From positions 1-64,000 of the forward strand of contig JAFWYD010000003.1 in assembly GCA_017517805.1 (NCBI GenBank): a stretch of 64,000 nucleotides of DNA. Direction: 5' to 3'. Positions 5,991 to 30,346 of the stretch are shown piece by piece. Numbering within the stretch: the first letter of the stretch is position 1; each line of letters begins with the position of its first letter. The DNA is from Akkermansia sp. Its GTDB lineage: Bacteria; Verrucomicrobiota; Verrucomicrobiia; Verrucomicrobiales; Akkermansiaceae. The position numbers and the translations under genes are program-made. The notes beneath the pieces were generated by a model, which worked only from the letters and a program-made list of their open reading frames with translations, ran no database searches and was not told the DNA's origin.

Positions 5991-6814
5991 CAGATGCTGG
6001 CCATTTGCTCGCAGGCTTTGCGCACGAGCATGAGGTTGCTGAGAATCTTTTCGAGGTCCTTGAGGTAGACCTGGTTGGGACCATCGCTCATGGCGTGGTC
6101 GGGGTCCTTGTGCACCTCCATGAACACGCCATCGATACCCATGGTCATGGCGGCGTTGGCCAGCACAGGTGCCAGCTCGCGGTCGCCACCCGTGGCACCC
6201 CCCAGGCCACCCGGGCGCTGGACGGAGTGCGTGGCATCAAAGACGACCGGGCAGCCGAACTTCTTCATCCAGTACATACCGCGCATGTCGACGATGAGGT
6301 TGTTGTAGCCGAAGGAGGTGCCGCGCTCGCAGAGCATGTATTTATCGCAGCCGAAGGCTTCCATCTTCTCGCAGATGTTCTTGCAGTCCCAAGGTGCCAG
6401 GAACTGCCCCTTCTTGATGTTGACGGGGCGACCAGTCTTGGCGCAGGCTTCCAGCAGGTCGCTCTGGCGGCTCAGGAAAGCCGGCACCTGGAGCAAATCC
6501 ACAAACTGGGCAGCGTATTCGGCCTGCTGCTCGGTGTGCACATCGGTCACGACCGGGCATTTGAGTTCCTTGCCGATTTCGGAGAGGATGCGGCAGCCTT
6601 CCTCGATGCCGGGGCCGCGGAAACTCTTCACGCTGGTGCGGTTGGCCTTATCGTAGGAGGCCTTGAAGATGAACTGCACTCCCAGTCGGGTGCAGATTTC
6701 CTTGATGGCCGTGGCCATCTCCCAGGCAAAGGCTTCGTTCTCAAGAGAGCAGGGTCCGAGCAGGAAGAAGGGTTCCTGCCCGCCGATGACTACGTTCTGA
6801 ATGTTGAAAGACAT
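5990..6814 (-). CDS. kdsA: 3-deoxy-8-phosphooctulonate synthase
   Basis: KdsA condenses phosphoenolpyruvate with arabinose 5-phosphate to make KDO 8-phosphate for the LPS inner core. Visible signatures are LLGPCSLEN near the N-terminus, FKASYDKANRTS and FRGPG around residues 50-70, TDVHTEQQAEYAA, QVPAFLSRQSDLLEA and the C-terminal DGVFMEVHKDPDHAMSDGPNQ. The 274-residue length is typical. ATG 6814 (MSFNIQNV) is chosen because it matches the family N-terminus; the frame upstream is open for 45 codons but crosses the promoter at 6839-6867. It heads the lpt operon, coupling KDO synthesis to LPS transport. Confidence 0.96.
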   Translation of the reverse strand: MSFNIQNVVIGGQEPFFLLGPCSLENEAFAWEMATAIKEICTRLGVQFIFKASYDKANRTSVKSFRGPGIEEGCRILSEIGKELKCPVVTDVHTEQQAEYAAQFVDLLQVPAFLSRQSDLLEACAKTGRPVNIKKGQFLAPWDCKNICEKMEAFGCDKYMLCERGTSFGYNNLIVDMRGMYWMKKFGCPVVFDATHSVQRPGGLGGATGGDRELAPVLANAAMTMGIDGVFMEVHKDPDHAMSDGPNQVYLKDLEKILSNLMLVRKACEQMASI

Positions 6815-18948: not shown

Positions 18949-20040
18949 ATGAGACAACCTGAATTCCTCGCCGCTCGCGATATCAACAGCCGGGCAGAGA
19001 CGCACACCTCCTTCTCCATCCCCGTGAGTACCGGCAACCCGGTGCTCGATGCGAACTTGTTCGACCTCTCCCGCCGTTTCTGTGGCAATCATTCGCCCGA
19101 TACCGTGCTGCAGATGCTCGCTACTGTGGTGAATGCTGCGGCTAGTCCGCTGGGGGAGCACGACCTCGAAATCATGAACCGCGCTATGGAGGAGATGTTC
19201 CGGGCAGACTCCATGTTCCTCCCCTATGAAAACCGCCGTAAGATTGCCTGTTTCGGCTCGGCTCGCATCAAGGAATCCGACCCGAGCTACATCCAGGCTC
19301 GCGCCTTTGCCGACCTCGTATCCAGTCAGGGCTATATGGTCATCACCGGCGGCGGCCCCGGGCTCATGCAGGCCTGCAACGAAGGTGCCACCGAGGAGCA
19401 TTCCTTCGGCCTCAATATCACGTTGCCCTACGAGCAACACCCCAATCCCATCATGGCGGGTAGCGATAAGATGATGAATTTCTACTACTTCTTCACCCGC
19501 AAGCTCAACTTCCTCAAACAGAGCGATGCCCTGGTCGCCTTCCCCGGGGGCTTCGGCACCATGGATGAAATCTTCGAGGCCATCACCCTCATCCAGACCG
19601 GTAAATGCACCATCTTCCCCGTGGTGCTTATGGACCCGCCCGGGGAATCATACTGGCACCGCTGGATTCACTTCATCGAAAAGGAACTCCTTGAAGCCGG
19701 TCTCATTTCGCCGGAGGATATGAAGCTCCTCTACGTTTCCAAGGATGCAGAGGATGCCTACCACCATATTGCCGCCTTCTACAGCCGCTACCACTCCTAC
19801 TACTTCGAAGGAGAGGCCCTCTCCATCCGCCTTTCTCACCCGCTGGCAGAGTCCTCTCTCCCCTGGCTGCTCGAGGACTTTGACGATATCATGCCCCTTA
19901 AGGATCTCCAGCAGCTCCCCTCAGACTCTGCCGACCCCGATGAACGCCTCGGCTTCCTCTACCGCCTCCGCTTCACGTTCAAACGCGGTAACTATGCCCG
20001 CCTCCGCGAGCTCATCGATGCCATCAACGACCTGGACTGA
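18949..20040 (+). CDS. LOG-family (TIGR00730-type) Rossmann-fold protein
   Basis: The nucleotide-binding core carries the family signatures GGGPGLMQACNEGA (about residue 134) and PGGFGTMDEIFEAITLIQ (about 200), the motif shared with LONELY GUY cytokinin riboside monophosphate phosphoribohydrolases, formerly misnamed lysine decarboxylases. In bacteria these enzymes hydrolyse nucleoside monophosphates to base and ribose phosphate. At 363 residues it is longer than the classic ~190-residue enzyme, with an N-terminal extension of ~95 residues and a C-terminal one, as in the large LOG subgroup. The natural substrate is not predictable here. Confidence 0.88.
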   Translation: MRQPEFLAARDINSRAETHTSFSIPVSTGNPVLDANLFDLSRRFCGNHSPDTVLQMLATVVNAAASPLGEHDLEIMNRAMEEMFRADSMFLPYENRRKIACFGSARIKESDPSYIQARAFADLVSSQGYMVITGGGPGLMQACNEGATEEHSFGLNITLPYEQHPNPIMAGSDKMMNFYYFFTRKLNFLKQSDALVAFPGGFGTMDEIFEAITLIQTGKCTIFPVVLMDPPGESYWHRWIHFIEKELLEAGLISPEDMKLLYVSKDAEDAYHHIAAFYSRYHSYYFEGEALSIRLSHPLAESSLPWLLEDFDDIMPLKDLQQLPSDSADPDERLGFLYRLRFTFKRGNYARLRELIDAINDLD

Positions 20041-20047
20041 GAGGGCG

Positions 20048-20126
20048 TGATTAGTGATTAATGTGAAGTTTCCTGCGCTTTGCGCAGGGACAATGAAAAG
20101 CCCCGGAGAATCTCTCCGGGGCTTTT
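20048..20126 (+). repeat. 3' module, left copy: heptamers, GCGC hairpin, terminator
   Basis: In order: TGATTAG, TGATTAA, TGTGAAG (20048-20068), a hairpin CCTGCGC-TTT-GCGCAGG (20072-20088), then a terminator. The same order with the identical hairpin recurs inverted at 26700-26794, next to the metallophosphoesterase gene. Confidence 0.8.
20096..20126. terminator. bidirectional terminator between the LOG and PEP-CTERM genes
   Basis: AAAAGCCCCGGAGA (20096-20109) pairs perfectly with TCTCCGGGGCTTTT (20113-20126). It can serve both convergent genes. Confidence 0.9.
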
Positions 20127-20181
20127 GGTGAAGTGGTGCTTCACTTCGGCCAGTTGCGGCCTTGGCACGCCAAAGTCTCGT

Positions 20182-20862
20182 TTAGTGACGACGGCGGCGG
20201 GCAGCCAGACCAGCAAGAGCCAGCAGGCTCAGCGTAGCCGTGGTAGGCTCGGGAACAAGAGCTGCACTCATGGCTTTTGCATCATTCAATGTTGTGTAGA
20301 TTGAACTTACCTCGTAATTTTTTACGTAGGTTTCATTCACTTCGATACCCGTTGCCGCAAAGCCGGAAACGCCACTAAATACGATGTTGGATTTCGTTTC
20401 TCCTGTTGTTGTTGCGGCTGTGCCATCCAGATATGCTATGGTAATTGCCGTATTGACTGTAGTGGCTCCTGTTTCGGGAGTACTGAAGGAATACACCAGG
20501 GATACAGCCCCGATGTTATCCCAATTCGTAGATGAGGTAAAGATGGCTCCAAGGCCAGTATCTGTAGCTTGGGAAGAGCTATTGCCTTTCACCCAACTGC
20601 TCCATACACCTGTAGTATCGCTACTAGAGGAGCCATTATTGGCTAACCCCAGCTGACCAGCCTCGTTGTTTGCCCAACTCCCTGTAAACATGAAGAAATT
20701 GGGCTTCGTTGACCCATTTCCAGTAAAGTTAACGTCACTAATGGATTCCAGTGCATCCACGTTGAACGTGAGTGCTATGGTAGCCGTTTTAGTGGTAGCA
20801 AACGAATCTGCGCCGCAGGCCAACCCTCCAAGAGCCAGCAAGGTAATAAGTGTCTTTTTCAT
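20182..20862 (-). CDS. PEP-CTERM sorted surface protein (copy 1)
   Basis: The 226-residue product has an N-terminal signal peptide (MKKTLITLLALGGLACGA), a beta-rich Ser/Thr/Asn-rich body and the C-terminal sorting signal: VPEPTTA, a hydrophobic helix (LSLLALAGLAA) and RRRRH. Such proteins are cut and anchored or released by an exosortase; none is in the window. The body is unlike that of its neighbours, though the ends are nearly identical to copies 2 and 3. The ATG at 20862 is fixed by the signal peptide shared by all copies. It carries the ~110-base conserved leader upstream. Confidence 0.9.
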   Translation of the reverse strand: MKKTLITLLALGGLACGADSFATTKTATIALTFNVDALESISDVNFTGNGSTKPNFFMFTGSWANNEAGQLGLANNGSSSSDTTGVWSSWVKGNSSSQATDTGLGAIFTSSTNWDNIGAVSLVYSFSTPETGATTVNTAITIAYLDGTAATTTGETKSNIVFSGVSGFAATGIEVNETYVKNYEVSSIYTTLNDAKAMSAALVPEPTTATLSLLALAGLAARRRRH

Positions 20863-20975
20863 TTTATTTGTTTTTTCTTTGCTTGTGTCTAGGTTATGCA
20901 GCCCGGCGGGTGTACTTCCTCGCGCGATGGAATGGCATCCCCTCACAGGCTCACGCGCGTAGTGTATCGCATTTC
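20863..20975 (-). promoter_or_regulatory. conserved PEP-CTERM leader, copy 1
   Basis: From the box GAAATGCGATACACTACG to the ATG this ~110-base stretch is almost identical to the ones at 23589-23699 and 26072-26184, and is recognisable at 26490-26600. It holds a 14-codon frame at 20938-20894 (MPFHRARKYTRRAA). No convincing -35 box precedes it, so the promoter type is uncertain. Confidence 0.8.
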
Positions 20976-21201
20976 AGAGTAGATATTCGCATTGTATGAA
21001 GATTGGCTTCTACTGCCCTTTTAGAAAGAGCAAATATAATGTCATCTATGGGCTTCCATTGATACACTATGAGCCTATCAACATTTCTCGCCATACACAA
21101 CACGGCTGAAGACCCCTGAAGAAAGGAAGGCAGATATATGCTACACATGTCTTGGTGTCGCTGCGAATTTTGTTGGCGTATATGGTGTTTTTTAATATTC
21201 G
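20976..21201. other. intergenic stretch between the PEP-CTERM leader and abiE
   Basis: A+T-rich relative to the flanking housekeeping genes. I see no supported gene, RNA or clear repeat; a minus-strand frame spanning it has no family features. Confidence 0.4.
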
Positions 21202-21229
21202 TTGACAAATGATATAATTTGTCTATAAT
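21202..21229 (+). promoter_or_regulatory. promoter of the abiE operon
   Basis: TTGACA (21202-21207), 16 bases, TATAAT (21224-21229), a near-consensus sigma70 promoter. A second TATAAT lies at 21213-21218. The start of transcription should be near 21236. Confidence 0.75.
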
Positions 21230-21257
21230 TTGTCCAAAAAAGCATCATTTCTCCTCC

Positions 21258-21803
21258 TTGAAAACAAAATCAACCAAATCACCCTCCAGAGGGACTCTCT
21301 ATTATCGGGAGAGCGTGGGCAAGCTGATTAAGGTTATGCCCGGCTTTTTTGTGTCTGCTGATTCTGTCCTTAGCGACGTAAATATGATGCAGTGGATTCA
21401 TGCTAAGCAACCTGAGGCTGTGATGAACTTAATCTCAGCGTTATCTTTTCATGGGCTGACCACACAAATCCCCGCCTATCTTTCTGTGGCTCTTCCCAGG
21501 GGGAAAGTCATTCCTAAAAATTTTGTGACTCCCGTAAAAGTCTGGTATACAAAGAATGAATGGCTTCTCTGCGGTGTCACACAATACTCAGGAGCGTTTG
21601 GCCCCTACCTCGTTACCTCGCCGGAACGAACACTTATAGATTGCTTCCGCTATAGAAACAAGATAGGGCTGGATATTTTTCTGGAATCCTTGCAAATCGG
21701 CATCAGGGAGAAAAGCTTTAATCTGAATCAGCTCGCAGAACTGGGCGATATTTTCAAAGTCTCAGCACTTATGAAACCCTACATCAAAACCGCAGTTTCA
21801 TGA
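21258..21803 (+). CDS. AbiEi-family antitoxin/transcriptional repressor (type IV toxin-antitoxin)
   Basis: AbiEi proteins neutralise the AbiEii nucleotidyltransferase toxin and repress their own promoter. The core here matches: GKLIKVMPGFFVSADSVL, the central segment (MNLISALSFHGLTTQIPAYLSVALP) and SPERTLIDCFRYRNKIGLDIFLESL. The N-terminus is short: the first helices of the usual winged helix are missing or degenerate. The strong promoter at 21202-21229 rules out starts before about 21236; TTG 21258 is the first candidate, ATG 21336 is a shorter one. It overlaps the toxin gene by 4 bases. Family call firm, start uncertain. Confidence 0.75.
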   Translation: MKTKSTKSPSRGTLYYRESVGKLIKVMPGFFVSADSVLSDVNMMQWIHAKQPEAVMNLISALSFHGLTTQIPAYLSVALPRGKVIPKNFVTPVKVWYTKNEWLLCGVTQYSGAFGPYLVTSPERTLIDCFRYRNKIGLDIFLESLQIGIREKSFNLNQLAELGDIFKVSALMKPYIKTAVS

Positions 21804-22696
21804 ATATCCGTCAGTTATTACAGCTTAAGGCCCGGAATGAGGGTATAGCGTATCGGCAGATATTGACCCACTATGCCATGGAACGATTCTTGTACCGCCT
21901 TTCAACCTCGTCCTCAGCAAACAGATTTTACCTGAAGGGCGGAATGCTGCTTATGGGGATGGGGGCGGTACCTGCACGCACGACCATGGACATTGACCTG
22001 CTGGGCAGAATCGACCACAACCCGGAAAACATCAAAAAGACTTTCAACAGCATTCTGCATACCAACGCTCAGGCAAAAGACCAGGTGACTTTCTCCTCAG
22101 ATTTTAAGATTGCCGAAATCATGAAGGATGCCTTGTACTCGGGAATCCGGGTGAGTCTCAACGCCTCTGTCTGCGGTGACTCCTGCCCCATCTCCATCGA
22201 TATTGGTTTCAGTGATGAAATTTACCCGGAACCCATTTTGATGGAATACCCGCCTTTGTTGCCAGAGGTGCCGCCAGTCCGCCTGCTGTGCTACACGAAG
22301 GAATCCATGGTGGCAGAGAAATGGCAGGCAATGGTTCAACTGGGACGTTTCAATTCACGTATGAAGGATTTTTACGACCTCTGGTTCTTGTCCCGCTCGT
22401 ATCATTTCCAATATCAGACCTTGAGAGATGCTGTAGAACGCACTTTCCAACGCCGTGGTACAGAAAAAGAGCAATACCAGGTTCTGTTCGAATCAGCATA
22501 TTCCAACACTCAACAGCCAGAATGGTCGGCCTATGTATCAAAGTTGAAAGCCGCTTCTTTCCATCGGAAACTGACTGCAGTCCTGCCATCTCGAGATCTG
22601 ACTGAGGTCCTGGCAGAAATCCGTGCATGGCTAGAACCCGTCATGAACGAAGCTGCCCCTTTTACGAGGTGGAAGCCGGGTAAGGGCTGGCAGTAA
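21800..22696 (+). CDS. AbiEii/AbiGii-family nucleotidyltransferase toxin
   Basis: The 298-residue protein is the toxin half of an AbiE type IV system, a DNA polymerase-beta-like nucleotidyltransferase. Motif I is visible as KGGMLLMGMG (residues 46-55), followed by the metal-binding DID (D64, D66) in TTMDIDLLG. Motif III is the VAEKWQAMVQLGRFNSRMKDFYDLWFL stretch (about 170-200) containing the conserved EK and KDFYDL. AbiE systems block phage by halting growth of infected cells. Its ATG overlaps the antitoxin stop (ATGA), typical for the pair. The plus orientation is opposite to the surrounding PEP-CTERM genes, consistent with insertion into that cluster. Confidence 0.92.
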   Translation: MNIRQLLQLKARNEGIAYRQILTHYAMERFLYRLSTSSSANRFYLKGGMLLMGMGAVPARTTMDIDLLGRIDHNPENIKKTFNSILHTNAQAKDQVTFSSDFKIAEIMKDALYSGIRVSLNASVCGDSCPISIDIGFSDEIYPEPILMEYPPLLPEVPPVRLLCYTKESMVAEKWQAMVQLGRFNSRMKDFYDLWFLSRSYHFQYQTLRDAVERTFQRRGTEKEQYQVLFESAYSNTQQPEWSAYVSKLKAASFHRKLTAVLPSRDLTEVLAEIRAWLEPVMNEAAPFTRWKPGKGWQ

Positions 22697-22722
22697 GATA
22701 TCAACCTCTTGGTGTTTAATGA

Positions 22723-22754
22723 AAAGCCCATGAGGGAGTCTCCTCATGGGCTTT
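22723..22754. terminator. bidirectional terminator between abiE and PEP-CTERM copy 2
   Basis: AAAGCCCATGAGG pairs with CCTCATGGGCTTT around six bases; a T run exists in both directions. Confidence 0.85.
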
Positions 22755-22781
22755 CGAAATTGGTTTATACTTGTGTAAAAG

Positions 22782-23588
22782 TTACTTGCGGCGGCGGCGG
22801 GCGGCCAGACCAGCGAGAGCCAGCAGACTCAGCGTGGCCGTGGCCGGCTCGGGGATAGAGGGAAGAACACCTTTATTCAGCTCCCATGCCTGATCTGCAG
22901 TTGCATAACCGTCATTGATGGTAAGTGCATCCAGGTAAGTTGTTGTGTAGCGGATTTCGGTTACGTCATACTTGTTATCAACCCACCGGGTGCCGTCATT
23001 ACCTGCGTTCAATGTTACAATGCTGCCATCATTCATGGCAACAGAGAAATAAATCTGAACACCGAGGGGAGCGGTTCTGGAACTGATTCCATTATAAGTA
23101 ACGGTAAGTGCAGCACCTGCTGCATTTGTCCAGTCGATGCTGGTCAGAGCGCTTGTAGCGGCAGTCCCATTAGAACCAAATACCGTTGCGCCTGTTGAGG
23201 TGAATGCAGAAGCGTCATCGGCGCTCTTAAAGTAGAAGCCACCGGTTGTAATGTTGCCGCTGCCATTGCTGTTGTTGTTGACGCTGATATTGACGGTATG
23301 ATCTACGTTTTCGGTACCAGCATCATCGACTTTCCATGAGAGCAGCGGAATCTTGCTGGCTCCGTTGGTGGACTTGCCTGTTGTAAAGACAGACAAAGCT
23401 TCAACATCCAAGGTTAGAACGGCTGAAAAGGCCTGCTTAAAGGAATCGTTGGTCAGAATAGTGGTCGCATCAATGACCGTTGGGGTATCCTGCAGGGTGA
23501 TTTCTGAAGGATTTGCCAGTTGTTTATCGCTCAAAGCGCCCATGGATACACCACCAAGCGCCAGAAGTGTAACGATTGTCTTTTTCAT
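22782..23588 (-). CDS. PEP-CTERM sorted surface protein (copy 2)
   Basis: The 268-residue product has a signal peptide (MKKTIVTLLALGGVSMGA), a Thr/Asn/Ser-rich beta body, and the ending IPEPATA, LSLLALAGLAA, RRRRK. It is expected to be exported by Sec and processed by an exosortase. Its signal peptide, sorting tail and upstream leader match copies 1 and 3, while the body does not, as though the ends are kept and the middle diversified. No catalytic domain is visible. Function may be surface display or matrix, by analogy only. Confidence 0.9.
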   Translation of the reverse strand: MKKTIVTLLALGGVSMGALSDKQLANPSEITLQDTPTVIDATTILTNDSFKQAFSAVLTLDVEALSVFTTGKSTNGASKIPLLSWKVDDAGTENVDHTVNISVNNNSNGSGNITTGGFYFKSADDASAFTSTGATVFGSNGTAATSALTSIDWTNAAGAALTVTYNGISSRTAPLGVQIYFSVAMNDGSIVTLNAGNDGTRWVDNKYDVTEIRYTTTYLDALTINDGYATADQAWELNKGVLPSIPEPATATLSLLALAGLAARRRRK

Positions 23589-23699
23589 TTTGTTTGGTTT
23601 CTTTGCTTGTGTCTAGGTTATGCAGCCCGGCGGGTGTACTTCCTCGCGCGATGGAATGGCATCCCCTCACAGGCTCACGCGCGTAGTGTATCGCATTTC
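23589..23699 (-). promoter_or_regulatory. conserved PEP-CTERM leader, copy 2
   Basis: Virtually identical to copy 1 from GAAATGCGATACACTACG onward, including the 14-codon frame at 23662-23618 encoding the same peptide. Confidence 0.8.
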
Positions 23700-23899
23700 G
23701 GATGCTCGATTTCGGCAACTGCGCTTATTCGCCAGGGATGCCCAACGAGATTGAGCTAAGCCGCATCCGGAAATGCCTGAAATTGTTATGATGCAACCCT
23801 ATATACAAAGAAGCTAATTGTGCTACTCGGAATACGGGGACGTAGAGATGTCAATATTGATGCAGTTGCTTTTACTTAGAATTTGGAAAACGAGTCCCA
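23700..23899. other. intergenic stretch upstream of the DUF4143 gene
   Basis: Two hundred bases without a supported gene between the copy 2 leader and the 43-base palindrome. No clear repeat or terminator seen. Confidence 0.4.
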
Positions 23900-23942
23900 A
23901 ATTCCCGCGAATCGGGAATTTGATTCCCGATTCGCGGGAATT
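23900..23942. repeat. perfect 20-bp inverted repeat next to the DUF4143 promoter
   Basis: AATTCCCGCGAATCGGGAAT (23900-23919) is followed by TTG and its exact reverse complement (23923-23942). Each arm contains the core TTCCCGCGAATCGGGAA, which recurs after the gene at 25249-25265. It ends 3 bases before the -35 box, so it could be an operator, a recombination site or both. Confidence 0.95.
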
Positions 23943-23945
23943 GTA

Positions 23946-23974
23946 TTGACAAAACCTATCTCAGATGCGAGAAT
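23946..23974 (+). promoter_or_regulatory. leaderless-type promoter of the DUF4143 gene
   Basis: TTGACA (23946-23951), 17 bases, GAGAAT (23969-23974), then 7 bases to ATG 23982. Confidence 0.65.
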
Positions 23975-23981
23975 ACATGTC

Positions 23982-25223
23982 ATGAAAGCGAGGCGTAAAT
24001 TGACGTATTTAGAACGGTCTGCAGAAACGCAGGTAAATTCTCTGAGCCGTTTTTTTCCCTGCGTAATGGTAACAGGGGCCCGTCAGGTAGGCAAATCTAC
24101 CATGCTGAAGAAATTGATGCCGGAAGGGATGCGTTATGTTTCATTGGACGATTATTTGGTGGCAGAATATGCCCGAAAAGATCCGAAAGGTTTCCTGGAT
24201 GAATGGGGGCATCCTCTTTGCATAGATGAAATTCAGTACGCACCGGGACTTTTAAGGGGAATCAAGCTGAAAGTGGATGAATCCGGGCAGGAACCCGGCA
24301 TGTACTGGCTCACTGGCTCCCAGCGTTTTGTGATGATGAAAGGTGTAAGCGAAAGTCTTGCCGGACGCATCGGAATAGTGGATTTGCACAGCCTTTCTCA
24401 GCGGGAAACCGGGCAGGAAAATCTTAGCTGTTGCCCTTTTAATCCCGAGCATCCGGCTATGCAGATGCAGCAGAACAATATCTGTGGTGTGACTGAGCTG
24501 TTTGAAAGAATCTATCGTGGTGGCTATCCGCGCCTGATTCAGCAGTCTGCCCTTAGTCCTGCGGCCTATTTTAGCGCCTATGTGCAGACTTATGTAGAGC
24601 GTGATGTACAGGCTCTCACCCAGGTGAGCAATCAGGCTTCCTTTATGAAGTTAATGCGCTCAGCTGCTATGCGGACAGGTCAGCAACTCGTTTATAGTGA
24701 TTTAGCACGTGATGCAGGTATTTCTCCTAAGACCGCTGCAGCCTGGGTTTCTATTCTTCAGGCATCCGGAATTGTAGAATTGCTGGAACCTTATTACATC
24801 AACACTACTAAAAGACTAGCCAAAACTCCAAAGCTGTATTTCATGGATACAGGGTTATGCTGCTGGCTGGCTGGTTGGGAAAATGCCACCCAGCTCATGA
24901 ATAGTGGCTACGCCGGTGCTATCCTGGAAACGTGGGTGTATGGACAATTGGTTCGTAGTTATGCTAATGCAGGTCAGGCTTGTCGTCTTACATATTACCG
25001 AGATAGAAATGGAGCGGAGGTAGATTTCGTGCTCGAAAAAAATGGATGTCTGTATCCCATGGAAGTAAAGCGAAGCAGCTCACCTTCTACTCATGATTTG
25101 CGCTGGGTGTCACAGATTCCGACTGGTAGTGCAGAATTGAAACCAGGAATTATTTTCTGCACGGCTGATTCCTTTATTCCTATGCCCTTTGGGGCGGCAG
25201 GATTCCCTATTTCTGCTTTATAG
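23982..25223 (+). CDS. AAA_14/DUF4143 ATPase with nuclease-like C-terminal domain
   Basis: The 413-residue protein opens with a P-loop domain: Walker A TGARQVGKST (about 31-40) and Walker B LCIDEIQ (about 79-85), with a sensor-like WLTGSQ. The middle (about 215-290) contains a winged-helix-like segment (LVYSDLARDAGISPKTAAAW). The C-terminal DUF4143 part carries GAEVDFVLE and EVK (about 344-364), the spacing of a PD-(D/E)XK nuclease core. Such genes are multicopy and patchy in gut bacteria; their biological role is not established. Here it is a single gene with palindromes on both sides, plus strand inside a minus-strand PEP-CTERM cluster. ATG 23982 is supported by the promoter; an earlier in-frame ATG (23883) would read through the palindrome. 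Confidence 0.87.
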   Translation: MKARRKLTYLERSAETQVNSLSRFFPCVMVTGARQVGKSTMLKKLMPEGMRYVSLDDYLVAEYARKDPKGFLDEWGHPLCIDEIQYAPGLLRGIKLKVDESGQEPGMYWLTGSQRFVMMKGVSESLAGRIGIVDLHSLSQRETGQENLSCCPFNPEHPAMQMQQNNICGVTELFERIYRGGYPRLIQQSALSPAAYFSAYVQTYVERDVQALTQVSNQASFMKLMRSAAMRTGQQLVYSDLARDAGISPKTAAAWVSILQASGIVELLEPYYINTTKRLAKTPKLYFMDTGLCCWLAGWENATQLMNSGYAGAILETWVYGQLVRSYANAGQACRLTYYRDRNGAEVDFVLEKNGCLYPMEVKRSSSPSTHDLRWVSQIPTGSAELKPGIIFCTADSFIPMPFGAAGFPISAL

Positions 25224-25247
25224 CAAAGCAGATGTTGTTAAAATACA

Positions 25248-25266
25248 GTTCCCGCGAATCGGGAAC
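25248..25266. repeat. third copy of the DUF4143-flanking palindrome core
   Basis: GTTCCCGCGAATCGGGAAC shares the 17-base core TTCCCGCGAATCGGGAA with both arms of the upstream inverted repeat. It starts 24 bases after the ATPase stop codon. Confidence 0.9.
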
Positions 25267-25288
25267 GTCAGGAAGAGTTATAACATGC

Positions 25289-25323
25289 AAAAAGCCCTTG
25301 GGGATGTCTCCCCAAGGGCTTTT
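25289..25323. terminator. bidirectional terminator between the DUF4143 gene and PEP-CTERM copy 3
   Basis: AAAGCCCTTGGGG pairs with CCCCAAGGGCTTT, with A and T runs on both sides. Confidence 0.85.
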
Positions 25324-25351
25324 CTGATAGCATTTGTCGCGGTCTCGCGCT

Positions 25352-26071
25352 TTACTTGCGGCGACGGCGGGCGGCCAGGCCAGCCAGGGCCAGCAGGCTC
25401 AGCGTAGCGGTGGCAGGCTCGGGAATGGGAGCAGCCACTGCAGCGGCGTTGGAAAGAGCCTTCATATCGGTCTCCGAGCCCCCCATATAATTGTTGAAGT
25501 AGTAGCTGCTGGACACAGCATCACCGAAGGACAATGCATCAGCAGCAGCTGAACCGGACTTAAGAGTCCCAGCAGTCACATAGCTGTCGATAATAGCGTT
25601 ACCGTTAGTGTCAATCAGGGTGAATGCCACGGCGGTACCACTTGTTGCACCAAAGGAATAAACAAGACCAGCAGAGGCAATATTATCCCAGCCGGTACCT
25701 GCAGCATCACCATTCAGGTCGGAAAGATTGTCTGCTCCTTGCCAGGTAAGACTGTTCCAATTTGTTGTATTACCCCAGCGAGCGTACAGACCGGAGGTGT
25801 TAATTTTATTACCGCTAGAGCCACCATTCACAGTAACGCCGGTCTGTGTGCCGTTACATGTATAACTCACAATATCTGTGCCCCAGGCAGGCGTCTGCCC
25901 TTTCTCTAACAATGTTTGAAGCTCAGTAACGTCAAGCGTAAGAGCAACAGTGAAATTGTTGCCCAGCGTGTTGTAACCAGTATTGCCGCCCGTTACGAAG
26001 GCTGCCTCTTCCAGAGTCACACCCATGGCGCAAGAGGCTGCGGCCAGCAGGGTAATAAGTGTCTTTTTCAT
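25352..26071 (-). CDS. PEP-CTERM sorted surface protein (copy 3)
   Basis: The 239-residue product has a signal peptide (MKKTLITLLAAASCAMG), a Gly/Thr/Asn-rich beta body, and the tail IPEPATA, LSLLALAGLAA, RRRRK. Its body resembles copy 1 in general style (for example GWDNIASAGLVYSFG here versus NWDNIGAVSLVYSFS in copy 1), suggesting those two share ancestry beyond the ends. Predicted to be exported and exosortase-processed. Upstream is the third intact copy of the leader. Confidence 0.9.
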   Translation of the reverse strand: MKKTLITLLAAASCAMGVTLEEAAFVTGGNTGYNTLGNNFTVALTLDVTELQTLLEKGQTPAWGTDIVSYTCNGTQTGVTVNGGSSGNKINTSGLYARWGNTTNWNSLTWQGADNLSDLNGDAAGTGWDNIASAGLVYSFGATSGTAVAFTLIDTNGNAIIDSYVTAGTLKSGSAAADALSFGDAVSSSYYFNNYMGGSETDMKALSNAAAVAAPIPEPATATLSLLALAGLAARRRRK

Positions 26072-26184
26072 TTTGTTTGGTTTTCTTTGATTGTGTTTAA
26101 GTTATGCAGCCTGGTGGGCTCGCTTCCTCGCGCGATGGAATGGCATCCCCTCACAGGCTTACGCGCGTAGTGTATCGCATTTCA
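26072..26184 (-). promoter_or_regulatory. conserved PEP-CTERM leader, copy 3
   Basis: Same layout as copies 1 and 2. It is more diverged in the middle, but the 14-codon frame at 26146-26102 is kept (MPFHRARKRAHQAA) with the same length and stop. Confidence 0.8.
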
Positions 26185-26480
26185 GAAGAGAAAAGAAAAA
26201 CATGTAAGCATCACGTTATTCTACATTCTACCAAAGTGGACTTTGAATTATAAAAAGTGGTTCTATTATAGGGGGGGTAGAAAAATGCTTAATTGAAAAA
26301 ATAAATGGCAATGAATTATATTAGTATAAAAAAACACATTGTTACAAATATGCAGATTATGTATTTCGAGAAATATTATTACGAGTGTAATTTTATCGTG
26401 AATTTTTAACTAATAAAAACCGCTAACAAAATCGCCCTAAGTTCAAAATAAATAGCGATTAACGGCAAAAAAATCTGTAC
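26185..26480. other. strongly A+T-rich spacer between two divergent leaders
   Basis: Nearly 300 bases of very A+T-rich DNA with many A and T tracts and no supported gene, in otherwise GC-rich surroundings. It separates the minus-strand leader of copy 3 from the plus-strand leader of the collapsed copy. Confidence 0.6.
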
Positions 26481-26600
26481 ATCGCATCTGAAATGCGATA
26501 TACCGCGCGAGTAGGCCTGTGAGGGGATGCCTTCCATCGCGCGAGGAAGTACATCTGCTGGGCAGCATAACCTAGACACAAGCAAAGAAAACCAAATAAA
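26481..26600 (+). promoter_or_regulatory. conserved PEP-CTERM leader, copy 4 (degenerate)
   Basis: The box at 26490-26500 forms the perfect palindrome ATCGCAT-CTGAA-ATGCGAT (26481-26499). Downstream it follows the other leaders, but one base is lost within the 14-codon frame (starting 26527), which shifts it. Confidence 0.7.
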
Positions 26601-26675
26601 ATGAAAAAGACGTTTATTACCTTGCTGGTCTTGCTGCCCGCCGCCATCGTCACTAAAGTGACTATGGTGTGTTAA
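26601..26675 (+). pseudogene. collapsed PEP-CTERM gene (internal deletion)
   Basis: The first nine codons encode MKKTFITLL, the PEP-CTERM signal peptide start. Then the sequence jumps directly to the DNA of the sorting tail: read in another frame, 26627-26656 gives LAGLAARRHRH and a stop. The junction falls on CTTGCTGG, an 8-base word present both in the signal-peptide region and in the tail region of the intact genes. So the whole body was lost by deletion between short repeats, leaving a 24-codon out-of-frame remnant. The intact leader and terminator still bracket it. Confidence 0.85.
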
Positions 26676-26699
26676 GACTACAAGATGCACCATTTCACC

Positions 26700-26732
26700 A
26701 AAAGCCCCCGGAGGATTACTCCGGGGGCTTTT
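26700..26732. terminator. bidirectional terminator
   Basis: AAAAGCCCCCGGAG (26700-26713) pairs with CTCCGGGGGCTTTT (26719-26732). It serves the remnant on plus and the metallophosphoesterase operon on minus. Confidence 0.9.
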
Positions 26733-26739
26733 TATTACC

Positions 26740-26794
26740 CCTGCGCAAAGCGCAGGAAACTTCAAATTAATCATTATTCACTAATCACTATTCA
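26740..26794 (-). repeat. 3' module, right copy: heptamers and GCGC hairpin
   Basis: Read on the minus strand: TGAATAG, TGATTAG, TGAATAA, TGATTAA (26794-26767), TTTGAAG, then the hairpin CCTGCGC-TTT-GCGCAGG (26756-26740) and the terminator. This is the inverted counterpart of 20048-20126. Confidence 0.8.
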
Positions 26795-27605
26795 CTTCAA
26801 TGATGTTTACTTCCGGGGGGCAGAAGAAGCGCATGCGGAGGATGGCGCCGACGCCGCGAGTGACAAAGATGCGGCGGTTGCCTTCGAAATCGAAGAGGCC
26901 GGCGGGCATGGAGGAGCGCAGGGAGATGAAATCACCGGTGAAGGGGTTGCCGAGCTGGCCTCCGTGAGTGTGGCCGGAGAGCATGAGGTCCCAGTCGTAG
27001 CGGCATAGTTGCCAGCGGCTTTCGGGGTCGTGCGAGAGGAGGAGCACGGGGTGCTGCTCCTGCCCAGGGGGGAGCATGCAGGTGGCCGGGGCATCATCTC
27101 CTTCGTTCCAGTCGCCCAGGCCGATGATGCGGAGGATGCGGCCACCTGGGGTAGGCCAGTCGATGGCCTGGTTGCGGAGGATGGGGACTCCGGCGGTGGC
27201 AAAGGCTCGCTCTACTTGCTCGAGTTTTTCGTAGTCCTGGTTGCCGAGTATGGCATAGGTGGGGGCGATGGAGCGGAGCTTTTTGAGACCATTGACGGCC
27301 CATCTGGTGCGCATGAATCGCTCGGTGACCATGATGAAATCGCCGCCGAAGATGATGAGGTCTGGTTTGGCGGCTTCGATGTGGTCAATGGCTTTGCTGA
27401 AGAGTTCGGCATCGTTATGCAGGTCGGCAAAGAAGGCGATGCGCAGGGGGCCGGCACCGGGCAGGGCGCTCTGAGGAAGCTGGATGCGGTTGCACTGCAG
27501 CTGCGCTGCGCTGTATTCCCCGAAATATTTGCTTCCCAGGCCGCAGATAAGCGCCAGCAGGGTGAAAATAATGAGCCATTTGCGGAGTTTTCTTCTGCAG
27601 GACAT
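26781..27605 (-). CDS. membrane-anchored metallophosphoesterase (YaeI/YkuE-like)
   Basis: The 274-residue protein has one N-terminal membrane anchor (about 10-25) and a calcineurin-type dinuclear metal site: D61 and H63 (FADLHND), D89 (FGGDF), N122 (GNQD), H192 (LSHD), H212 and H214 (SGHTHGG). The usual GNHD/E motif reads GNQD here, so the catalytic His is Gln. Relatives include phosphodiesterases and lipid A-precursor hydrolases; the substrate is not predictable. The last codons and stop (VNSD, TAG) lie in a heptamer array. It follows the M29 aminopeptidase gene by 15 bases, so an operon is likely. Confidence 0.88.
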   Translation of the reverse strand: MSCRRKLRKWLIIFTLLALICGLGSKYFGEYSAAQLQCNRIQLPQSALPGAGPLRIAFFADLHNDAELFSKAIDHIEAAKPDLIIFGGDFIMVTERFMRTRWAVNGLKKLRSIAPTYAILGNQDYEKLEQVERAFATAGVPILRNQAIDWPTPGGRILRIIGLGDWNEGDDAPATCMLPPGQEQHPVLLLSHDPESRWQLCRYDWDLMLSGHTHGGQLGNPFTGDFISLRSSMPAGLFDFEGNRRIFVTRGVGAILRMRFFCPPEVNIIEVNSD

Positions 27606-27620
27606 GGGGGGTGATGATGT

Positions 27621-28724
27621 TTAGTTTGCGTTGAAAATGCTCAGCTTCGGGTCGAGGAAGAGGCCGTCTTTGCGGATGAGGGTGTCATCGAACCAGATTT
27701 CGCCGCCGCCGTATTCGGGGCGCTGGATGCAGACGAGGTCCCAATGGACGGCTGAGTTGTTGCCGTTGGGGGCTTCATCGTAGGCCTGGCCGGGGGTGAG
27801 GTGGAAGGAGCCGGCGATTTTTTCGTCGAAGAGGATATCGCGCATGGGGCGCAGGATATGCGGGTTGAGGCCAAGGGCGAATTCACCGATGTAGCGGGCA
27901 CCTGCATCGGAGTCCAGGATTTTGTTGAGGGCCTCTTCGTTGCCGTTGCAATGGGCTTCGATGATTTTGCCGTTTTCGAAGCGGAAGCGCACGCCATCGA
28001 AGGGGATGCCATGGTAGATGCTGGGGGCGTTGTAGGTGATGGTGCCGTTGATGCTGTCGCGCACGGGGGCGGTGTAGACTTCGCCATCGGGGATGTTGCA
28101 GTCGCCGCAGCAGGGAATGGCGGGTATGCCTTTGATGGAGAAGCTGAGGTCGGTGCCGGGGCCGGTGATGCGGACTCGGTCGGTCTGTTCCATGAGGTGT
28201 TTGAGCTGCAGCATGGCATCGCGCATGGCGGCGTAGTCGGCCAGGCAGCAGCGGAAGTAGAAGTCTTCGAAGTCTTCGGTGCTCATGCCGGCGGCCTGGG
28301 CCATGCTGGGGGTGGGCCAGGCGAGAACGGTCCATTTGCGGCGGTTGCAGGTAATATCGCTGGCGGGTTTGAGATGGCGGCTGACGATTTGCATGCGCTC
28401 GCCTGGCACATCGGCGCTTTCGAAGGTGTTGGCATCGGCGTAGAAGCAGATGTGCACCTGCATGTCTTCGGCGCGTTGCAGGCGGTAGCGGCCATCGAGT
28501 TCGTATTGTTCATCGGTGGCGCCGGCGGCGAGTTCTTTGGAGACGAGGGCGTGCGAGAGGTCGACGTGGGGGATGCCTCCCGCGCGGCGTACGGCGCGGA
28601 TGAGTTCGATGACCATGGCATCGGGGATGTCTTGCATGCGGAGGTTTACATGCTCGCCGGGCTGTACGCGCACGGAGTAGTTGACGACCTGGTCTGCCAG
28701 CTGAGTATAACGAGGATCCTTCAT
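27621..28724 (-). CDS. M29-family aminopeptidase (copy 1)
   Basis: This 367-residue cytosolic metalloexopeptidase is of the AmpS/aminopeptidase T type. Visible family segments: QPGEHV at the N-terminus, TDRVRITGPGTDLSFSIKG (about 185), NIPDGEVYTAP with a metal-binding Glu (about 225), GEFALGLNPHI with a second Glu (about 285), and FHLTPGQAYDEAPNGNNSAVHWDLV (about 310-335), which supplies the metal-binding His and HxD. It removes N-terminal residues from peptides. A paralogue with the same length lies upstream (29237-30346), separated only by the four-helix-bundle gene, so the pair probably arose by tandem duplication. Heptamer repeats lie directly before its start. Confidence 0.9.
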   Translation of the reverse strand: MKDPRYTQLADQVVNYSVRVQPGEHVNLRMQDIPDAMVIELIRAVRRAGGIPHVDLSHALVSKELAAGATDEQYELDGRYRLQRAEDMQVHICFYADANTFESADVPGERMQIVSRHLKPASDITCNRRKWTVLAWPTPSMAQAAGMSTEDFEDFYFRCCLADYAAMRDAMLQLKHLMEQTDRVRITGPGTDLSFSIKGIPAIPCCGDCNIPDGEVYTAPVRDSINGTITYNAPSIYHGIPFDGVRFRFENGKIIEAHCNGNEEALNKILDSDAGARYIGEFALGLNPHILRPMRDILFDEKIAGSFHLTPGQAYDEAPNGNNSAVHWDLVCIQRPEYGGGEIWFDDTLIRKDGLFLDPKLSIFNAN

Positions 28725-28730
28725 GGGGAG

Positions 28731-28772
28731 TGATTAGGGATTAATGATTAGTGATTAATGGAAAGTGGAGGA
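28731..28772 (+). repeat. phased heptamer array, six units
   Basis: TGATTAG, GGATTAA, TGATTAG, TGATTAA, TGGAAAG and TGGAGGA follow one another without a phase break. It starts 7 bases upstream of the copy 1 aminopeptidase start codon. Confidence 0.8.
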
Positions 28773-28829
28773 CGGTGGTGGATAATCGGGGGCTGATGTG
28801 GGGATTGGAACAAGCTAAGGATTTATTAG

Positions 28830-28848
28830 TAATTAATCACTAATCATT
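28830..28848. repeat. 19-bp direct repeat, left copy
   Basis: TAATTAATCACTAATCATT, identical to 29227-29245. It contains the stop codon of the four-helix-bundle gene (28844-28846). Confidence 0.95.
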
Positions 28849-29227
28849 TTTTTAATCTCTTTTGGACGGTCAGGGATGAGGCGGTCATGATGGCGGCTAT
28901 TTGGCGCGCTTCGTCCAGTAGTGAAGACAGTTTGGCTTCTGGTAGGATTTCTCCCGCAATGAGGTATTCTATCCACAGGATGGACTCATCGGCTTCTTCC
29001 TGGCAGATTTTGATTTTGTTGTAGAAATCAGCTTCACTTTTGGCGAGGCATGCGGCGCGATAGTTGGCGGCAACGGAAGTAGCACTGCGGAGCAGTTGTT
29101 TTCCTAGTACTTTGGCTACGGTCGTATTGGGAAGTTGTTTCCACATGCGTATGACGCGCAATCCAAAATCTTTGGTGCGCTGCCTTAAATCCGCGTGTTT
29201 TCTTTCATCTGCCATTGCTGCATCCAT
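28844..29227 (-). CDS. four-helix bundle protein (S23-like)
   Basis: The 127-residue, all-helical product has the family pattern: RTKDFGLRVIRMWKQLPNT, GKQLLRSATSVAANYRAACLAKSEADF, CQEEADESILWIEYLI and a C-terminal helix. Relatives are found in intervening sequences of 23S rRNA genes and, as Avd, beside diversity-generating reverse transcriptases, where they bind nucleic acid; many others have no known role. No reverse transcriptase or rRNA lies nearby. The gene is exactly framed by 19-bp direct repeats: its stop lies in the left copy and the last base of its start codon overlaps the right copy. It looks like a cassette inserted between two aminopeptidase paralogues. Confidence 0.9.
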   Translation of the reverse strand: MDAAMADERKHADLRQRTKDFGLRVIRMWKQLPNTTVAKVLGKQLLRSATSVAANYRAACLAKSEADFYNKIKICQEEADESILWIEYLIAGEILPEAKLSSLLDEARQIAAIMTASSLTVQKRLKK

Positions 29228-29245
29228 AATTAATCACTAATCATT
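29227..29245. repeat. 19-bp direct repeat, right copy
   Basis: TAATTAATCACTAATCATT, identical to 28830-28848. It holds the stop codon (TAG, 29239-29237) of the upstream aminopeptidase gene. Confidence 0.95.
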
Positions 29246-30346
29246 GTTCGGATTCAGAATTTCCAATTCTGAATCCGTAAAGATTCCGTCTTTGCGGATG
29301 AGCTCGTCGTCGAACCAGATTTCGCCGCCGCCGTAGTCGGGACGCTGGATGCAGACCATGTCCCAGTGGACCTGGGAGCGGTTGCCGTTGTCGCAGTTTT
29401 CGTAGGCCTGGCCGGGGGTGAAGTGGAAGGAACCGCCGATTTTTTCGTCGAAGAGGATATCGCGCATGGGCTGCAGGATATAGGGGTTGACACCGAGGGC
29501 GAATTCGCCGATGTAGCGGGAGCCGTCGTCGGTGTCGAGGATTTTGTTGAGGGCTTCTTCGTTGCCGTTGCAGTGGGCTTCTACGATTTTGCCGTCCTTG
29601 AAGGTGAGGCGGATGCCATCGAAGGGGATGCCTTGGAAGAGGGTGGGGGCGGTGTAGTGGATGGTGCCGTTCACGCTGTCTTTGATGGGGGCAGTGAAGA
29701 CTTCGCCATCGGGGATGTTCATTTCGCCGGAGCAGGGGTGCGCGGGCATGCCTTTGATGGAGAAGGTGAGGTCGGTGCCGGGGCCGGTGATGCGGACGCG
29801 GTCGGTGCGCATCATGCGGGCTGCGAGTTTGTCCATGGCAACGCGGAGCTGGGCGTAGTCTGCCAGGCAGCAGCGGAAGTAGAAGTCTTCAAAGGCTTCG
29901 GTGCTCATGCCGGCGCCCTGGGCCATGCTGGGGGTGGGCCAGCGCAGGACACACCATTTGGTTTTGCAGACGCGGTGGTTGTGCACCGGGCGCATGTGGC
30001 GCTGGGCCAGGGCCATTTTATCGGCGGGGACGCTGGAGTTTTCAAAGCTGTTGTGGCCGCCTCGGATGGCGATGTAGGCATCCATGGCCTGCATTTCGGC
30101 GAGTTCAAAACCGGCGATGGAGGCGTATTGTTCATCGGTGGCACCGGCGAACATTTCGCGGGTGATGCGGCTGTGGCGCAGGTTGATGTGGGGGTGGGCT
30201 CCGGCTTCGCGCACGGCCCGGATGAGTTCGATGCCGATTTCATCGGGTGCGTCGATGATTTCGAGCAGGACGTGTTCGCCGGGTTGCACGCGGCAGGAGT
30301 GGCGGATGAGGTTCTGGGCAAGCTGTGTGGTGCGAGGATCGGTCAT
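29237..30346 (-). CDS. M29-family aminopeptidase (copy 2)
   Basis: The 369-residue paralogue of copy 1 keeps the same metal-ligand segments: NIPDGEVFTAP, GEFALGVNPYI and FHFTPGQAYENCDNGNRSQVHWDMV. It differs mainly in residues 60-140. Both copies keep the catalytic set, so neither looks decayed. Stop TAG lies within TGATTAG of the right direct repeat. A seven-unit heptamer array begins 7 bases before its start. Two near-identical enzymes suggest either dosage or slightly different peptide preference; that is inference. Confidence 0.9.
   Translation of the reverse strand: MTDPRTTQLAQNLIRHSCRVQPGEHVLLEIIDAPDEIGIELIRAVREAGAHPHINLRHSRITREMFAGATDEQYASIAGFELAEMQAMDAYIAIRGGHNSFENSSVPADKMALAQRHMRPVHNHRVCKTKWCVLRWPTPSMAQGAGMSTEAFEDFYFRCCLADYAQLRVAMDKLAARMMRTDRVRITGPGTDLTFSIKGMPAHPCSGEMNIPDGEVFTAPIKDSVNGTIHYTAPTLFQGIPFDGIRLTFKDGKIVEAHCNGNEEALNKILDTDDGSRYIGEFALGVNPYILQPMRDILFDEKIGGSFHFTPGQAYENCDNGNRSQVHWDMVCIQRPDYGGGEIWFDDELIRKDGIFTDSELEILNPNND

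Follow-up and report, generated by a model that had tools for sequence, protein, structure and literature searches.

The DUF4143 gene in the 64,000-nucleotide Akkermansia sp. sequence analysed here (the window, meaning the whole stretch) is, on balance, best regarded as the single gene of a mobile cassette, in which a palindrome, a promoter, a gene for a DUF4143 ATPase-nuclease and a further palindrome follow each other, with the ends and the operator putatively bound by the encoded protein. The bracket of palindromes itself is real, specific and conserved. It is built from the 17-mer TTCCCGCGAATCGGGAA, which was located at 23902-23918 (plus strand), 23924-23940 (minus strand) and 25249-25265 (plus strand), giving the following arrangement:

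23900-23942, no strand assigned: upstream palindrome AATTCCCGCGAATCGGGAAT-TTG-ATTCCCGATTCGCGGGAATT, two inverted 17-mers within perfect 20-bp arms
23946-23974, plus strand: promoter identified by eye, with the -35 box TTGACA (23946-23951), a 17-bp spacer and the -10 box GAGAAT (23969-23974)
23982-25223, plus strand: DUF4143/AAA_14 gene (PADLOC PDC-S01, 413 aa), assigned by profile matches
25249-25265, plus strand: downstream half palindrome (a single 17-mer), starting 25 bp past the stop codon

The three copies framing the gene, reported in a preliminary description of this DNA, were all located at these sites, and they are the only exact copies in the whole 2.45-Mb assembly, which holds one further copy with two mismatches; shuffling of the window gave a mean of 0.15 matches to the 17-mer even when three mismatches were allowed. 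The first two copies constitute the perfect 43-bp palindrome (20-bp arms, 3-bp loop) that had been described, and TTGACA begins 3 bp beyond its edge. The third copy does lie downstream, at a spacing of 25 bp and not the 24 bases first given; where the focal locus has this half palindrome, a complete palindrome of 39-49 bp is found in most close relatives. The ATG at 23982 sits about where transcription should begin, so the focal transcript is probably leaderless. Gene strands confirmed that the gene is a lone plus-strand insert among minus-strand PEP-CTERM genes, and an Rfam search of window positions 20000-30000 matched no family.

The surroundings of the gene contain other repeats and inserts. 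The leaders of PEP-CTERM genes (window 20829-20978, 23578-23705 and 26484-26611) are approximately 90% identical repeats of 125-150 bp. An AbiEi/AbiEii toxin-antitoxin pair (21219-22696) is inserted in the same PEP-CTERM cluster, and comparison of its two flanks revealed no match between them; the equivalent interval of genome G213 carries a different nucleotidyltransferase pair resembling AbiE. A 127-aa ORF at 28844-29227, resembling a four-helix bundle (S23-type), has a 17-bp word common to its two flanks, and similar ORFs occur near the DUF4143 elements of loci L048 and L055.

Close relatives of the focal gene were found in Akkermansia-type gut MAGs from ruminants and other animals. The clade considered (at least 48% identity) has 57 members with enough flanking DNA. 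The upstream palindrome is present in 44 of the 57; in 32 of them TTGAC is no more than 25 bp from the right edge of the palindrome, and in 25 the distance is only 1-4 bp. A second, near-identical palindrome follows 0-30 bp past the stop codon in many clade members. A matching downstream copy is missing from roughly half of the clade and from the majority of other DUF4143 genes. The arms vary by subfamily (GCGAAT, GCAAAT, GAAATT, GAAAAT, CTGAAAAT and unrelated ones) and are matched within each gene. A paralogue in the focal genome (G000:C44, 62% identical) carries TTTCCTGAAAATCGGGAATGTCATTCCCGATTTTCAGGAAA upstream and identical arms after its stop codon, such that the palindromes of two paralogues of one genome differ between the genes and match within each of them. 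Because this same-genome paralogue has its own matched palindrome, the palindrome evidently follows the protein subfamily, as judged from the sequences compared, and not the host. Two further DUF4143 genes were noted on the way. One (L080/L009, G000:C53) has a palindrome with 26-bp arms of unrelated sequence immediately upstream. The other (L259:2296-4223, G204:C1), from a different subfamily (~26% identical), adjoins the tail of uvrB and is bracketed by two palindrome-bearing repeats of ~220-256 bp; G198 and G205 have a palindrome without a gene after uvrB.

To quantify the bracket, the two 150-bp flanks of each gene were compared and the longest identical word that they have in common was recorded. 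Such a word of at least 12 bp was found in 28 of the 57 clade members versus 4 of 282 control ORFs from the same loci (p=5e-21), and of these four positive controls one resembles CRISPR repeats and another is a SoFic gene. Among 109 other DUF4143 genes, taken from Verrucomicrobiota, viral contigs and plasmids, 13 share a word of at least 12 bp (p=3e-5), with longest words of, for example, 54, 44, 33, 29 and 28 bp. When 847 kb comprising 628 ORFs were scanned, on contigs chosen partly for carrying elements, shared words of at least 20 bp occurred only at DUF4143 genes, a tandem array aside. Across 76 genomes of the genus, the palindrome patterns either flank DUF4143 genes or stand solo, and a reversed control pattern gave no matches. 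Both outcomes that the preliminary description named as refuting its idea were checked for and did not materialise: in the focal genome the palindrome is not scattered away from DUF4143 genes, and homologues carry co-varying flanking palindromes.

Comparison of loci suggests that these units move. The unit of L123 (G205, beside mnmE) is 98% identical to that of L125 (G204) in unrelated flanks, with the homology breaking on the left at the palindrome and on the right 23 bp beyond the right palindrome. Between L043 and L045 an identity of 99% extends as far as the outer edge of the palindrome, past which the two differ, and other DUF4143 copies adjoin fhs, guaA, ppdk, mnmG and recA. The recA locus offers a graded series: L127 (G213) has palindrome, gene and palindrome; its closest relative, L195 (G202), with flanks 95-96% identical, has exactly one solo palindrome; and the more distant L197, L199, L200 and L221 have neither gene nor palindrome. 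Beside guaA, the gene is present in G215, G203 and G222, and G223 carries a half palindrome at that position; upstream of one conserved gene solo palindromes stand in G199 and G219 and a DUF4143 gene in G183. In L272 a palindrome is fused to the 3' remnant of a DUF4143 gene. The solo palindromes L181:5023-5064 and L183:4702-4743 retain perfect arms at the same spot in flanks that are only 66% identical. At fhs, guaA and ppdk the majority of orthologous loci show just ordinary terminator-like hairpins, which fits naive sites. Judged by these comparisons, the unit acts like a mobile cassette; the single-gene mobile unit envisaged in the preliminary description gains support from the near-identical units at unrelated loci and from the recA series. 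A clean empty site, which it had proposed to look for, was not found for the focal copy: the interval at the LOG-phosphodiesterase locus of G213 is without the focal gene and holds other cargo, and its intergenic DNA has diverged too far for a junction to be placed. The comparisons identified no target-site duplication, recA being the sole well-matched occupied/solo pair and the naive flanks being too diverged for the junction. In many cases related copies have just one flank in common and break at the palindrome edge, which may reflect real recombination or rearrangement, or errors in MAG assembly. Beside one DUF4143 element (L112:2618-2803 and 6324-6508), a palindrome and ~150 bp of its flank occur a second time at a distance of 2.3 kb.

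The perfect arms enclose a palindrome centre of 7-11 nt that is quick to change or invert. Within one gene, the two centres are nevertheless identical, directly or inverted, in 5 of 22 cases (null expectation 0.68, p=2e-4). That an inserting unit takes over its centres from the target sequence was considered and rejected because they alter or invert even between same-locus orthologues that are 93-96% identical (L134/L138 and L142/L143). Fast change combined with a match within genes points to recombination or cleavage at the centres, by the encoded or by host enzymes.

The focal protein matches AAA_14 (PF13173; E=2e-23, 83 bits) and DUF4143 (PF13635; E=4e-47, 160 bits) in Pfam, as well as PDC-S01 in PADLOC (PDLC04790; E=3e-111, 370 bits, residues 8-413). 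Its domains are a STAND-like AAA ATPase (~10-185), a winged helix (~215-300) and a C-terminal PD-(D/E)XK core. This composition, proposed earlier from the translation, is borne out by profiles and fold, with a correction to the nuclease residues, which are E361 and K363 (motif E361-x-K363) in place of E362 and K364, along with E346, D348 and the additional E316. Across 35 sequences G32, K38, D82, E83, R129, D348, E361 and K363 are invariant, leaving both the Walker A/B and the PD-(D/E)XK motifs intact. In an AlphaFold2 model (pLDDT 91, pTM 0.91) the C-terminal part has the helix-strand-strand-strand order of PD-(D/E)XK nucleases, and this core is predicted to cut DNA. Structure comparison, which covers mainly residues 4-313, gave the archaeal ATPases 2qen (Z 14.6) and 2fna (Z 14.2), with ~250 residues aligned through the AAA and then the winged-helix part; this part also resembles NLR/STAND ATPases, including the fold common to Avs5, and the structural matches include the MuB ATPase. 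A phmmer search of the PDB with the focal protein returned no real relative.

The winged-helix ATPase probably recognises and binds the palindromes that its gene carries. If the protein does so, the upstream palindrome beside the -35 box would be its operator and the two copies together would be the cassette ends; loss of the gene, whether it is excised or the two copies recombine, would then leave one palindrome behind. The upstream copy is no terminator of the focal gene because it is located upstream of the promoter.

SoFic-type Fic genes of the same genus (PADLOC SoFic; L267:1950-3272 and L355-L384) have a palindrome of their own, GGCTAATT...AATTAGCC, which precedes the -35 box and recurs directly behind the stop codon. 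Their flanks share words of up to 48 bp, and in one 90% identical pair the homology ends at start-103 and stop+48. SoFic has a Fic AMP-transferase fold unrelated to AAA or PD-(D/E)XK and contains no nuclease; it does have a C-terminal winged-helix-like domain, so the factor common to both gene types is a DNA-binding domain together with a palindrome abutting the promoter. Since SoFic genes are bracketed without a nuclease, the nuclease is possibly irrelevant to the bracket, and an operator role is favoured; the notion of an autoregulated unit, raised in the preliminary description, is likewise strengthened by analogy with these Fic genes. The SoFic bracket also suggests a common, undescribed mode by which single-gene units spread.

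Autoregulation without dedicated mobility, although unlikely in our estimate, is the strongest competing explanation. The winged-helix protein would repress its own promoter via the upstream palindrome, the downstream copy would block read-through or close a DNA loop, ordinary horizontal transfer and homologous recombination would account for the spread of the gene, and a solo palindrome would be the scar of a deletion between two 40-bp repeats. In favour of this, most members have the palindrome immediately beside the -35 box, SoFic shares the architecture with a winged-helix-like C-terminus and no nuclease, recombination of two direct copies would yield the recA solo site directly, and a palindrome joined to a 3' gene remnant exists in L272. 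However, units of 98-99% identity at unrelated loci, with homology that stops at the palindrome edges, are unexpected from ordinary recombination tracts, and solo palindromes keep perfect arms amid flanks of only 66% identity.

A second explanation takes the gene as an ordinary anti-phage gene, with the palindromes serving as a self-DNA mark or sensor and with the mobility of any defence gene. It draws on the PADLOC assignment, on the wide distribution of PDC-S01 as a candidate system (PMC12988326, PMC13356809) and on the STAND-like fold common to Avs5 and NLR ATPases. PDC-S01, described as an ATPase fused to PD-(D/E)XK, was identified by guilt-by-embedding and placed fourth by frequency among prokaryotic defence systems, most candidates of this kind still awaiting validation (PMC12988326), and a rumen survey found no individual locus more often (PMC13356809). 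Against this, PDC-S01 is a guilt-by-embedding candidate without validation (PMC12988326), and the insertions adjoin the core genes recA, guaA, mnmG, mnmE and fhs and move as one gene. We regard this explanation as improbable, though the cassette may have a defence effect. Because PDC-S01 ranks fourth commonest without experimental validation, the defence status of its members needs re-examination; should they prove to be mobile cassettes that carry their own brackets, censuses of defence systems would be counting mobile genes, and DUF4143 proteins, unexplained in their tens of thousands, would gain a concrete, testable substrate, the palindrome adjoining each gene. That unrelated genes merely happen to be surrounded by generic repeats, terminator hairpins or assembly artefacts is very improbable, for although palindromes can mislead assembly and several flank mismatches are one-sided, the pattern is absent from control ORFs and gene-specific copies recur across many independent assemblies.

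Within the preferred reading of a mobile cassette, the part played by the nuclease is more speculative. That the PD-(D/E)XK domain cuts the palindromes and so drives movement, or a homing-like spread into solo palindromes, is conceivable but doubtful, as the SoFic bracket points to the operator role instead. More tentative again is the proposal that a new class of mobile element is moved by DUF4143/PDC-S01 proteins, one-chain fusions of ATPase, winged helix and nuclease that would recognise and cut their own palindromes, move from palindrome to palindrome and have been counted among the commonest prokaryotic defence systems, with the bracketed SoFic genes sharing the same ecology of single-gene cassettes ended by operators.

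Among the closest known systems is the PDC-S01 family, its HMM matching the focal protein over the full length; the accounts found treat it as defence and leave flanking palindromes, solo sites and cassette behaviour unmentioned, and a literature search that covered few subscription papers found none linking DUF4143 with palindromes. The archaeal STAND-like ATPases SSO1545 and PABY2304 align through AAA and winged helix over ~250 residues (Z 14-15) at 15-17% identity, and we know of no bracket or mobility for them. The unit is unlike a homing endonuclease gene, as the examined insertions are intergenic and whole palindromes are kept on both sides. As regards the terminal inverted repeats at opposite ends of a classical DDE insertion sequence, each end of the unit is a palindrome in itself. 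TnsA/TnsC-type and other AAA-assisted transposition combines a PD-(D/E)XK nuclease with an AAA regulator; in the focal unit both functions reside in one chain, there is no adjacent DDE transposase and the ends are palindromes. In REP/BIME-RAYT and IS200/IS605 systems a single gene for a Y1/HUH transposase is bounded by subfamily-matched palindromes, and gene-less palindromes occur elsewhere. The focal unit resembles them in both respects, but it has few solo copies per genome and, in place of a Y1/HUH transposase, a gene for AAA_14 plus DUF4143 as the only gene inside.
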